Assembly (NCBI RefSeq): GCF_004339575.1
Contig: NZ_SMFV01000007.1
Coordinates: 1-53,163 of the forward strand
Reading direction: 5' to 3'
DNA: 53,163 nucleotides
From: Phorcysia thermohydrogeniphila
GTDB taxonomy: Bacteria; Aquificota; Aquificia; Desulfurobacteriales; Desulfurobacteriaceae
Shown here: positions 1-53,163 of the stretch, piece by piece
Layout: the number at the start of each line of letters is the position of its first letter
Numbering within the stretch: the stretch's first letter is position 1
Translations under genes and position numbers: made by a program
The notes under the pieces: model-generated
The model's input: the letters and a program-made list of their open reading frames with translations, nothing else
The model's database searches: none
Told to the model about the DNA's origin: nothing

Positions 1-246
1 ACAGTCAACGTGGGCGTAGTGGTACTTGTCGGATTCGTACTCCACGTGGGCAGTAGCGATTGTGATACCCCTTTCCCTCTCTTCTGGAGCTTTGTCAATC
101 TGGTCGTAGGCTACTTCCTGAGCGAGACCTTTGAGGGCGAGACAGTGGGTGATAGCAGCAGTGAGGGTTGTTTTACCGTGGTCTACGTGTCCGATTGTTC
201 CCACGTTCTTGTGGGGCTTCTTCCTTTCAAATTTCTGCTTTGCCAT
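1..246 (-). CDS. tuf: Elongation factor Tu, N-terminal part (left copy)
   Basis: EF-Tu brings aminoacyl-tRNA to the ribosome as a GTP complex. Only the first 82 codons lie in the window; the gene runs off the left edge. The G1 motif [11 protein letters not shown] is at about residues 19-29, switch I contains [14 protein letters not shown], and the fragment ends at HVDC, just before the DxxG glycines. The ATG follows an AGGAGG ribosome binding site. It is the last gene of the str operon, after fusA. The encoded protein is identical to the fragment at the right end of the window; the DNA differs at about nine silent sites. Confidence 0.97.
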
Positions 247-30984: not shown

Positions 30985-32340
30985 ATGAAAGTAGAAAAAG
31001 AGCTCCTTAAAGAGTGGGATAAAACTTACGTCTGGCATCCATTTACACAGATGGCCGAATACGTAAAGTTTGATCCGATTATTATTGAAAGGGGCGAAGG
31101 GTGCTGGCTCTACGATATTGATGGCAGAAAGTACCTTGACGCAGTCGGTTCAATCTGGTGTAACGTCCACGGCCATAACGTAAAAGAACTAAACGAGGCT
31201 CTAATAGAACAGGTAAATAAGATAGCCCACTCAACGCTCCTTGGCCTTTCAAACGTTCCGGCAGTCCTTTTAGCAAAGAGAATCGTTGATATAGCCCCTA
31301 AAGGGCTAAACCACGTCTTTTACTCTGACGACGGCTCAACAGCCATGGAAGTTGCCCTAAAGATGGCCTACCAGTACTGGCAACTTAAGGGAGAAAAGAA
31401 GAGGACAAAGTTTGTAAAGCTTGACGAGGCATACCACGGGGATACGGTAGGCTCTGTCAGCATCGGAGGAATAGACCTCTTCCACTCAATGTTTAGAGAG
31501 CTCATGTTTGAGACCTACAAAATTCCCTCCCCTCACCCTTACAGGTTTGACGGAACGCCAGAAGAGTGTAGGGACTACGCCCTCTCAAAGCTTGAAGAAG
31601 TCTTAGAGAAACACGGAGAAGAAGTTGCCGCGGTTGTTTTAGAGCCTCTCGTTCAGGCAGCAGCCGGAATAATCGTTCATCCGGAAGGCTTTTTAAAAGG
31701 GGTGAGGGAGCTCTGCAACAAGTACAACGTCCTCCTGATTTTAGACGAGGTTGCAACGGGCTTTGGAAAGACCGGAAAGATGTTTGCCTGTGAGTGGGAA
31801 GGGGTTACCCCGGACATTATGGCCATTTCAAAAGGACTTACTGCAGGATACATGCCCCTTGCAATAACATTGGCTACCGACGAGGTCTATGAAGCCTTCT
31901 GGGGAGGGGACTACGGAAGTGGAAAGACCTTCTTCCACGGACACACCTTTACAGGAAACCCCTTAGGATGTGCAGTAGCCCTTGCAAACCTTGACCTTTT
32001 TGAGAAGAAGGGATATCCAGAGTCCTTAAAACCAAAAATTGACTACCTCTACAGGAAACTATACGAGGAGCTCTCAGAGCTCAAACACGTTGGAGACATA
32101 AGAGGAAAGGGCTTTATGGTAGGAATAGAGCTCGTCAAGGACAAGAAAACTAAAGAAGGCTTTTCGTGGAAGGACGATGTAGGAAGGAGAGTTTCAAGGA
32201 GAATCGTAGAAAAAGGCGTCTTTACAAGGCCTTTAGGTCCTGTCCTCGTGATAATGCCACCCTTAGCTATCTCTGAAGAGGAGATTGACTTTATGGTGAA
32301 AACTTACAGGGATGCAATCGTTGAGGTCTTGGGAAATTAA
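30985..32340 (+). CDS. bioA: Adenosylmethionine-8-amino-7-oxononanoate transaminase
   Basis: A PLP aminotransferase of 451 residues in biotin synthesis that makes 7,8-diaminopelargonate. It begins with the BioA-type YVWHPFTQMAEY, has DGSTAMEVALKMAYQYW, the PLP Asp in LILDEVATGFGKTGKMFA, and the Schiff-base Lys in MAISKGLTAGYMPLA. ATG is taken eight bases after TTGGAGG; an in-frame TTG within that site is not the start. No other bio genes are adjacent. Lysine-type BioA relatives are possible but the motifs are standard. Confidence 0.93.
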   Translation: MKVEKELLKEWDKTYVWHPFTQMAEYVKFDPIIIERGEGCWLYDIDGRKYLDAVGSIWCNVHGHNVKELNEALIEQVNKIAHSTLLGLSNVPAVLLAKRIVDIAPKGLNHVFYSDDGSTAMEVALKMAYQYWQLKGEKKRTKFVKLDEAYHGDTVGSVSIGGIDLFHSMFRELMFETYKIPSPHPYRFDGTPEECRDYALSKLEEVLEKHGEEVAAVVLEPLVQAAAGIIVHPEGFLKGVRELCNKYNVLLILDEVATGFGKTGKMFACEWEGVTPDIMAISKGLTAGYMPLAITLATDEVYEAFWGGDYGSGKTFFHGHTFTGNPLGCAVALANLDLFEKKGYPESLKPKIDYLYRKLYEELSELKHVGDIRGKGFMVGIELVKDKKTKEGFSWKDDVGRRVSRRIVEKGVFTRPLGPVLVIMPPLAISEEEIDFMVKTYRDAIVEVLGN

Positions 32341-32344
32341 AAAA

Positions 32345-32360
32345 GGGGGCGAAAGCCCCC
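32345..32360 (-). terminator. Terminator between convergent bioA and cytochrome genes
   Basis: GGGGGC-GAAA-GCCCCC is a six-bp stem with a GNRA tetraloop. On the minus strand it is followed by TTTTTTAATT, so it best terminates the cytochrome transcript; the plus-strand side lacks a T-run. Confidence 0.8.
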
Positions 32361-32365
32361 CAAAA

Positions 32366-34792
32366 TTAGTTCCTCTTTCTTCTAAGGAGTCCAAGGGGAA
32401 GGAGTGAAATCAAGGCAGAGAGAGCTCCACCAACTCCAGCAGAATGACTCACAGAACAGCCTCCGCCACCTTCAGACGTAGCAACCTCGCTTATAGAGGA
32501 CTCGGTGGTAGTTTCCCCGCTTTCTTCTGTTAGAGAAAGGGTATCTTCAGAAGGAGCGGGATATCCGACAGCCACCAGTTCTTCCTTAACGTGTTCTGCG
32601 TACTCAGCAAGGGTAGGAGTTCTGTCAATCGCTTTTACAAAATAAGAGGATGTCTCAACATCGGAGTCGTAGGTAAAGTATAGAGGCGTAGTGTTCCTAA
32701 GGAGTGAACCTTCTAAGTCCTCAGTCCTTGTTCCGTGGCAGTCGCCACAGGAAAGGGCTTCGTCTGCCGGCCTGATGTTATGGCTCATTCCAAAGGCGTC
32801 TGTCGTAGCAACAAGCCTAACCTCTATTTCCTCTTCGCTCTTTCCGGTCGCAGAAGCTATAACCTTCTTGAGAGCAGTAATTGCTGCTTCAACCTCCTCC
32901 TTTGTATTGAGCTCCAAGTCGCCGTCGGGAGCTCCGGTAAGACCGGTATCGTCAGTAATTTGAACATCACCTTCACCACAAACACCATCCAGATTAACGT
33001 CTATACAGTTCGGGACGACCCTCCACAGTGACCAGTTACCGCTGGCAAGGTCGGAATCGGTTGCAATCGTAACTCCAGAATTCGCCTTAACGACCTTAAT
33101 GTTAAGAATATTCAAGTTTTCCCCTGTATTCGTCGTTGCTGGACTATACTTAGGTTTACCGGTAGAAGGGTCTATCTCCACTTTCATATACTTGGTCGGC
33201 CACTCAGGATTAACCTTAAAGACCTTAGCTAAATACCTTGCAAGAACAGGTTTAAACTCTCCAGAGGAGTTATCTTCAAACAGGAGAACTCCCATTGCAT
33301 TTACAGGTTTAATCTTCCACTTAACTTCTCCCGTCTCAAAGTCCCTTTCTGGCAACCAAGCGATATCAACGTACTTACCGTTTACAGGGTCTCCGTAGAG
33401 GTAACCGTGCTTGTCAAGCCCAAAGAACTGAATGTTACTTGCATTTCCCATAACTACAAACATCGGGAGAGTCCAGTCTATGAGCTTGACCCTGTAAAAA
33501 TACTTCTTTCCTATGTGGCAAGTAGTGCAAGCAATTACACTAAGGTGGGTATTTGCCGCAGGGCCGAAGTAGTCTATGTGCTCGCTCTCTGCATCGTAGT
33601 GACAGTTCTTACAGGTTAAGCTACCTGCAAGCTGATTCCACATAACTCCAAAGGCAGGCCCACAGCTACCTTTTGCAAAGTTGTGGGAAGGAGTTCCTAT
33701 GTGAGTACTTCCCACAGGTTGGTGACAATCTACACAGCCAATACCGTTCTTCTTATGAACGTCAACGTTCTTACTACCATCTGCAAACTGCCATACCATT
33801 GCCTCTTTCATAAAGTCCGGCTGCATGAACTTTAAGTCCTTAACCTGCAGGACAAAGTCCATCGCATTTACTTGACCGTCGCCATTTATATCTTCAAACC
33901 CTATAGCTCCGTGGCAGTGGCCGCAGTGCTTATCAGTTGCGTGGCCTATGGTTTCATCCCCAACCGTTCCACTTTCATAGGTAACGCTCAAATCCTCATT
34001 AACTGTCCCAATAAAGCCTCCAGCAACGTCTGCAGCAGCAAAGTAAGGCTTCCCAACAGCTCTACCGTTTACAGTTGTTCTGAACATAAGAGTTCCTGTT
34101 GCCGCCTTTTCCCAGCTTTCCGTCAGCTTCTTAGAGTGGCAGTAGAAACAGGTAGGAGCCATCGTATTATTTACACTTTGGCCGTTTACATCTACTTTCC
34201 ACTCAAAAGGTAAAAACTTTTTCTCCCCGGTATTCGGGTCAGTACCAAAGGTAGCGTAATCTCCCGGAATCTTTCCAGAGTCAAACACTGCCTGAATTTC
34301 TGAAAGGGACTTTTCGTGAAGGAAGTTGTCGTTTCTGTCCTTCTCCATAGGGCCGCCACCGGGGTGGCACATTCCACACATTCTGGCGTAATCTGGAGTA
34401 GTAAGGTCAATGAGTCCCGGGTTTGTTCCTTCCTGAGGCGCCAACTGGCGGTAAGCTGGTGGTCAGAGCTTACCGTACATCCCCATGTCAAGAGATGTCA
34501 GCTCCTTAGGAAGACCGTTTGTGAACTGGGTATCACCATACTTGTTGTAATAGTTCTTCTCATAAATCTCCTTTGTCAGGAGAACAAGCCTTCCCTGTTG
34601 GAAGTGATAAGCTGTTGCAATGTAATCAACGTCATGACAGGAGCCACAGCTTTTTCTAACATCCACAGGAAGTCCTGATTCTGAAACAGGATTTTCAAAC
34701 TGGTCTTTAAGGGTTACATCAGGGTGTGTTGCTAAAGCTCCTGAGGTTGATAACAGCGCAACCCCCAACACTACCCCTAAGTATCTCTTCAT
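32366..34792 (-). CDS. Octaheme c-type cytochrome interrupted by an in-frame TGA
   Basis: Read across TGA 34463-34465 (codon 110) this is one 808-residue exported cytochrome: signal peptide ending SGALA, one CXXCH before the TGA (CGSCH, about 49-53) and seven after (CGMCH, CFYCH, CGHCH, CVDCH, CKNCH, CTTCH, CGDCH). Two calcium-loop-like stretches occur (DINGDGQVNAMDF and DVNLDGVCGEGD). The C-terminus is a sorting-like tail: GGGGCSVSHSAG, a hydrophobic span, then RRKR. After the TGA the same frame continues PPAYRQLAPQEG with no ATG or ribosome binding site of its own. Family resemblance is to multiheme reductases of the OTR/ExtKL kind; the electron acceptor is unknown. Confidence 0.8.
34439..34474 (-). 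other. Stem-loops around the in-frame TGA
   Basis: On the minus strand GGTAAGCT and AGCTTACC form a perfect eight-bp stem whose nine-base loop holds the TGA (34463-34465). A second stem, CGCC-AGUU-GGCG (34450-34439), has its loop starting 17 bases after the TGA with G as second loop base. That agrees with the loose description of bacterial selenocysteine insertion elements. The two stems compete slightly; no folding energy was computed. Confidence 0.4.
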
Positions 34793-34833
34793 CGTTCCCT
34801 CCTAAATTGGTTAGTTAGTTCATTCATATTTAT

Positions 34834-52917: not shown

Positions 52918-53163
52918 ATGGCAAAGCAGAAATTTGAAAGGAAGAAGCCCCACAAGAACGTAGGAACAATCGGACACGTAGACCACGGTAAAACAACCCT
53001 CACAGCTGCTATCACCCACTGTCTCGCCCTCAAAGGTCTCGCTCAGGAAGTAGCCTACGACCAGATTGACAAAGCTCCCGAGGAGAGGGAAAGGGGTATC
53101 ACAATCGCCACTGCCCACGTAGAGTACGAATCCGACAAGTACCACTACGCCCACGTTGATTGC
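52918..53163 (+). CDS. tuf: Elongation factor Tu, N-terminal part (right copy)
   Basis: The first 82 codons of a second EF-Tu gene; it runs off the right edge. Motifs are as in the left copy: [11 protein letters not shown] and [14 protein letters not shown], ending at HVDC. The protein is identical to the left fragment and the DNA differs only at silent positions. TTTGGAGGATAGGATT precedes the ATG. It follows tRNA-Thr with a leader unlike that of the left copy, so the two genes are regulated separately. Confidence 0.97.

Follow-up and report, generated by a model that had tools for sequence, protein, structure and literature searches.

An in-frame TGA conserved in octahaem cytochrome genes of Desulfurobacteriaceae as a probable selenocysteine codon

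An octahaem reading frame interrupted by a single TGA

The window analyzed here is the whole 53,163-nucleotide stretch of contig NZ_SMFV01000007.1 from Phorcysia thermohydrogeniphila. Its minus strand carries a single reading frame that runs from 34792 to 32366 and is open apart from the TGA at 34463-34465, which is codon 110 of this frame. The signal peptide and haem site 1 precede this TGA in the product, while CXXCH sites 2-8 follow it, an arrangement that the first-pass annotation had described and that translation confirms. The features of the gene are listed below with the basis on which each was assigned.

34798..34803, minus strand: Shine-Dalgarno sequence AGGAGG, belonging to the sole well-formed start (sequence)
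32366..34792, minus strand: gene for an octahaem c-type cytochrome of 808 residues, counting TGA110 as selenocysteine; stop codon TAA (sequence and homologues)
34730..34792, minus strand: putative Sec-type export signal peptide, about codons 1-21, MKRYLGVVLGVALLSTSGALA (sequence)
34634..34648, minus strand: haem site 1, CGSCH, codons 49-53 (sequence and alignment)
34463..34465, minus strand: codon 110, TGA, a proposed selenocysteine within MYGKL-U-PPAYRQLA (TGA in all homologues)
34439..34453, minus strand: invariant 15-nt block TACCGCCAGTTGGCG, codons 114-118, candidate SECIS core (conservation)
34447-34450, 34443-34446 and 34439-34442, minus strand: parts of that core, namely stem CGCC, loop AGUU and stem GGCG
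34364..34378, minus strand: haem site 2, CGMCH, codons 139-143 (sequence and alignment)
34136..34150, minus strand: haem site 3, CFYCH, codons 215-219 (sequence and alignment)
33911..33925, minus strand: haem site 4, CGHCH, codons 290-294 (sequence and alignment)
33806..33808, minus strand: Lys329, which is invariant and pairs with Lys153 of octahaem tetrathionate reductase (OTR, 1sp3) (alignment)
33722..33736, minus strand: haem site 5, CVDCH, codons 353-357 (sequence and alignment)
33599..33613, minus strand: haem site 6, CKNCH, codons 394-398 (sequence and alignment)
33515..33529, minus strand: haem site 7, CTTCH, codons 422-426 (sequence and alignment)
32735..32749, minus strand: haem site 8, CGDCH, codons 682-686 (sequence and alignment)
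32369..32470, minus strand: C-terminal anchor, GGGGCS, hydrophobic stretch, RRKRN (sequence)
32339..32361, minus strand: terminator-like hairpin GGGGGC..GCCCCC followed by a T run (sequence)

The AGGAGG lies 5 nt upstream of the start ATG. Past TGA110, the in-frame restart candidates are TTG at codon 117, ATG at codons 138, 141 and 149, and GTG at codon 169, and no Shine-Dalgarno sequence was found upstream of any of them. The downstream part had initially been described as having no ATG, no ribosome-binding site and no means of export; the last two points hold, but the first does not, given the three in-frame ATG codons, from which translation would yield a product with no export signal. Long open frames around stop codons are not rare in this 1.62-Mb genome, in which 42 in-frame stops have at least 100 open codons before them and at least 400 after them, presumably for the most part ordinary tandem genes. 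The split by itself therefore proves little, and the long open frame past the stop, on which the earlier argument had leaned, is weak evidence. What raises the split above chance is that the TGA and the bases 3′ of it are kept in every homologue.

The C-terminal tail of the window protein scores 14.2 bits with the MYXO-CTERM sorting domain model (TIGR03901), below its cut-off of 20. A pattern search for a GGGGCS-hydrophobic-RRKK tail found it in two proteins of this genome only, the window protein and a larger relative (family B, below), and the tail is possibly a dedicated sorting signal. At the two ends of the contig, positions 4-207 (minus strand) and 52957-53160 (plus strand) match the same stretch of a translation-factor GTPase with equal score, which suggests that the contig was broken at duplicated tuf-like genes.

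Conservation of the TGA and of a hairpin behind it

Family A, which comprises the window gene and its homologues in Desulfurobacteriaceae (52-75% identical), has TGA at the codon 110 position in nine of nine loci, the window's own included, within the motif GMYGKL-U-(P/A)PAYRQLA; TGG never occurs at this position among close homologues. Two further octahaem subfamilies (24-27% identical) have a TGA at the same site, subfamily B within SHYGGW-U-PPSYRQLA (proteins of about 1380-1540 residues) and subfamily C within GDDGAW-U-PPSYRQLA (about 1310-1500 residues). Across A, B and C, the TGA is present at this site in all 36 loci, which come from several genera of Desulfurobacteriaceae. Wherever the fetched DNA encodes [PA]P[AS]YRQLA, a TGA comes before it and the same 15 bases are used, with no exception (37 distinct strings in this search, versus 36 loci by covariance model search). 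The family is confined to Desulfurobacteriaceae among 136 Aquificota genomes. When 84,980 species genomes were scanned with the window protein, a search that reaches close relatives only, one locus was returned, in a Desulfurobacteriaceae MAG; a plasmid scan returned no match.

The 15-nt block TACCGCCAGTTGGCG starts 9 nt past the TGA and is identical in every copy of A, B and C. It forms a CGCC-AGUU-GGCG hairpin that starts 12 nt after the TGA, with its loop 16 nt after it. Family A has 179 codon columns with one amino acid in all nine sequences, and only eight of these are codon-invariant: five are the consecutive codons 114-118, and a sixth is codon 109, which adjoins the TGA. The block includes rare synonyms, namely CGC (9% of Arg codons), TTG (9% of Leu codons) and GCG (8% of Ala codons). 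A covariance model of the block gave 36 strong sites (E<1e-11) in 22 family genomes, with everything else at E of at least 5e-4. Two of the sites lie in the P. thermohydrogeniphila genome, one in the window gene and one in its family-B gene, and all of the sites that were examined fall at the in-frame TGA of an octahaem gene. Folding of the 39 nt behind the TGA gives, for the window copy, a minimum free energy no better than that of shuffled sequences (z -0.13); the hairpin is short, and its support is conservation and not energy. The Rfam SECIS_1 model found no match in this genome and none in the controls, and is thus uninformative. We dropped a 9-bp inverted repeat around the TGA (CGGTAAGCT..AGCTTACCG, with the TGA in its loop), as it is not conserved in homologues.

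These data bear on whether the TGA is a real stop, in which case the locus would encode a short monohaem protein, and the larger part would be a second gene or a remnant produced by nonsense mutation, pseudogene formation or sequencing error. The frequency of tandem in-frame ORFs in this genome and the TTG and ATG codons after the TGA would suit such an arrangement, but the TGA is kept, and never replaced by TGG, at 36 loci in several genera, no other bases in the gene are as constrained as those after it, and the downstream part conserves all seven of its haem sites despite having neither signal peptide nor ribosome-binding site. We regard a real stop as highly improbable. The TGG-to-TGA nonsense mutation and the sequence error that the first-pass annotation had listed as alternatives are excluded by the presence of the TGA in 36 loci of many genomes.

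The same genome encodes a second predicted octahaem selenocytochrome, a family-B protein of 1407 residues with TGA at codon 165 (contig C3:173749-178014, minus strand; L048:1753-5973), whose gene carries the same 15-nt core as the window gene. A sister family, D (L032, L035, L026-L028 and L033), has the Ser codons TCA, TCT and AGT at the corresponding position, and the copies seen are without the 15-nt block and without the C-terminal anchor. A tree that includes OTR divides the family in two, A+D on one side and B+C on the other. Were the root to lie on the OTR branch, the Ser of family D would most simply be a loss of selenocysteine, a tentative reading because OTR is very distant.

Selenium machinery and other selenocysteine genes

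The P. thermohydrogeniphila genome encodes selA (643 bits), selB (430 bits), a tRNA-Sec (selC, 84 bits; anticodon TCA by ARAGORN) and SelD (TIGR00476, 386 bits), the last of these with an in-frame TGA of its own, MKPFKLTQTVRASG-U-GAKLSP, and a SECIS-like hairpin. SelB scores above cut-off in 20 of the 22 family genomes. The initial suggestion of a selenocysteine candidate, to be checked through selA, selB, selC and selD and a SECIS search in the bases after the TGA, is thus borne out by the presence of all four genes, by the conserved SECIS-like hairpin and by a TGA at this codon in all close homologues.

A downstream structure can likewise promote stop-codon read-through, and the hairpin could in principle be a signal of this kind, with an ordinary amino acid such as Trp inserted at the UGA. 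Against this stand the full sel system of this genome, the occurrence of selB across the family genomes and the Cys, not Trp, that OTR relatives conserve between haems 1 and 2. The geometry and GU-containing loop of the hairpin also match SECIS elements of the same lineage: GCC-GGUCU-GGC in the TGA-containing fdhA of relatives (loop 18 nt after the TGA), GCCC-GGUC-GGGC in the SelD gene (17 nt) and GCUGC-GGUC-GCAGC in a selenocysteine peroxiredoxin gene (17 nt). We regard read-through with an ordinary amino acid as highly improbable. Codon 110 is almost certainly a selenocysteine codon, as judged from sequence conservation, and we put the probability of selenocysteine together with a single octahaem product at roughly 90%. 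UGA110 would be decoded by SelB and tRNA-Sec under control of the short SECIS hairpin, yielding one exported octahaem cytochrome that is probably anchored at the cell surface through its C-terminal tail.

No TGA-containing formate dehydrogenase was found in this genome, which places the cytochromes among its few clearly recognised selenocysteine clients; relatives with TGA-containing formate dehydrogenase alpha genes exist (L064, L065, G004:C1:295039 and G020:C117:5122). The selD gene (contig C3:171306-172298, minus strand) is the second gene downstream of the family-B cytochrome; the gene between the two encodes a lipoprotein, judged by eye to be PPIase-like, and in three further genomes that were inspected family B is also followed by a similar lipoprotein gene. 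A ferredoxin-like protein of about 200 residues with several 4Fe-4S motifs (contig C2:218552-219151, plus strand; relatives L235-L246) is encoded in 18 of the family genomes, each time with an in-frame TGA. The 12 loci that were read share one position for this TGA, CP.(D/N)AFL-U-, and each has behind it a hairpin of the CUCC-AGUUU-GGAG type, whose sequence varies (for example, GCUCCGGUUCGGAGC in L243); the protein probably represents a further selenoprotein family. An AhpC/Prx-type peroxiredoxin (contig C2:278852, plus strand) has predicted selenocysteine at the peroxidatic position (TFV-U-PTE) and a canonical GGUC-loop SECIS; its best match is PrxU (NF040737) at 231.5 bits, below the cut-off of 270. 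The genome paper of T. ammonificans notes a tRNA for selenocysteine and leaves multihaem proteins unmentioned (PMC5441870).

Relation to octahaem tetrathionate reductase and possible function

No model of NCBIfam release 20.0 (June 2026) scores above cut-off for families A, B or C. Pfam Cytochrome_C7 covers a two-haem stretch of the window protein, which has no close Pfam or NCBIfam family; the OTR model TIGR04315 reaches 45 bits against a cut-off of 375. The window protein nonetheless appears, from profile alignment, to be a remote relative of OTR. We aligned the family by hhalign with OTR from Paracoccus and Photobacterium plasmids and a 1sp3 fragment, with selenocysteine written as X, and obtained a probability of 99.8%; all eight haem sites pair in order, and the invariant Lys329 pairs with the OTR residue that is Lys153 in 1sp3. 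Lys153 of OTR reportedly ligates the catalytic haem, and Cys64 is said to lie in the active site. Selenocysteine 110 pairs with an OTR Cys only if it is written as C, and falls in a gap when written as X, so its equivalence to Cys64 is unproven. Of the U or C in homologues that the first-pass annotation had named as support for selenocysteine, U is borne out; for C there is an OTR Cys in the same interval that did not align blindly. The full-length AlphaFold model, at pLDDT 44, was too poor to place the residue.

On the alignment with OTR, electrons would travel through the other seven haems to an active-site haem ligated by Lys329, where selenocysteine 110, located between haems 1 and 2 like Cys64 of OTR, might act as a nucleophile or redox partner. 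The protein would then serve respiration by reducing polysulfide or an oxyanion of sulfur (or selenium), a substrate class that is the most likely by analogy because of the OTR relation. We see an even chance that the protein performs OTR-type catalysis with selenocysteine at the active site.

Alternatively, selenocysteine 110 may be real but serve as a haem ligand or as a structural or redox-buffer residue in an extracellular electron conduit. The C-terminal anchor suggests surface placement, as in electron conduits, subfamilies B and C have weak matches to an OmcA/MtrC-type model, and the equivalence to Cys64 is not recovered once the selenocysteine is masked, all of which would be compatible with a conduit. 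The eight haems and the catalytic-type Lys are nevertheless strictly co-linear with those of OTR, and about 88 kDa for 8 haems gives about 11 kDa per haem, which is within the range of catalytic multihaem proteins, described at >7 kDa per haem (PMC7096707). We consider a conduit a substantial possibility, somewhat on the improbable side.

Extended to the whole family, the OTR-type reading would mean that Desulfurobacteriaceae possess surface-anchored, OTR-type octahaem reductases in three ancient subfamilies of paralogues. Selenocysteine would take the place of the active-site Cys in these proteins, facing a Lys-ligated catalytic haem, and would be specified by a dedicated, sequence-invariant AGUU-loop SECIS; together, the three subfamilies would be the most numerous class of selenocysteine proteins that was recognised in these thermophiles. 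We advance this tentatively, at just short of even odds; if true, such proteins would make up a new class of selenium-dependent terminal reductase. By its sequence features, the window gene would mark a group of surface cytochromes containing selenium for which no model had existed, and no paper describing the three subfamilies was found in the part of the literature that our search covered. Selenocysteine in multihaem cytochromes has already been predicted for ExtKL, and one entry of TIGR04315 is listed as carrying such an annotation in GenBank; to these few known or predicted cases the present analysis adds three octahaem subfamilies, as well as a short, AGUU-looped type of SECIS that is common to distant paralogues. 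Standard gene finders cut at TGA, so they would overlook large respiratory cytochromes of this kind or record them as fragments. Whether early-branching vent bacteria use selenium in haem-based respiratory catalysis becomes testable.

Like the SECIS elements of fdhA, selD and PrxU, the cytochrome element has a GC-rich stem at its apex and a loop containing GU, and this GU lies about 18-21 nt after the TGA. It differs in its shorter stem of 4-5 bp, in its AGUU loop instead of GGUC(U) and in a primary sequence that is invariant across three paralogous subfamilies.

ExtKL of Geobacter (GSU2937-2936) is likewise a multihaem cytochrome whose frame is cut by TGA and for which selenocysteine has been predicted (PMC5877670; listed in PMC13188914), which upholds the parallel drawn in the first-pass annotation. 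It differs, however, in its five haems, its ext cluster partners and its size of about 49.5 kDa, and membership of the window protein is ruled out by its score with the ExtKL model NF040886 (10.9 bits against a cut-off of 250, E=0.13); the window protein stands nearer to the OTR family. WP_331457571.1, a TIGR04315 member, is listed as a GenBank-annotated selenoprotein (PMC13188914); compared by this listing alone, it indicates that selenocysteine has been annotated at least once in the OTR-type family. OTR itself (Shewanella, PDB 1sp3; TIGR04315) shares with the window protein the order of its eight CXXCH sites, matching motifs that surround haems 7 and 8, the Lys aligned with Lys153 and a non-haem residue between haems 1 and 2, which is Cys in OTR and predicted selenocysteine here. 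At 443-547 residues, versus 808, OTR differs from the window protein, which has a long additional stretch between haems 7 and 8, the GGGGCS C-terminal anchor and a putative selenocysteine with its SECIS rather than a Cys.
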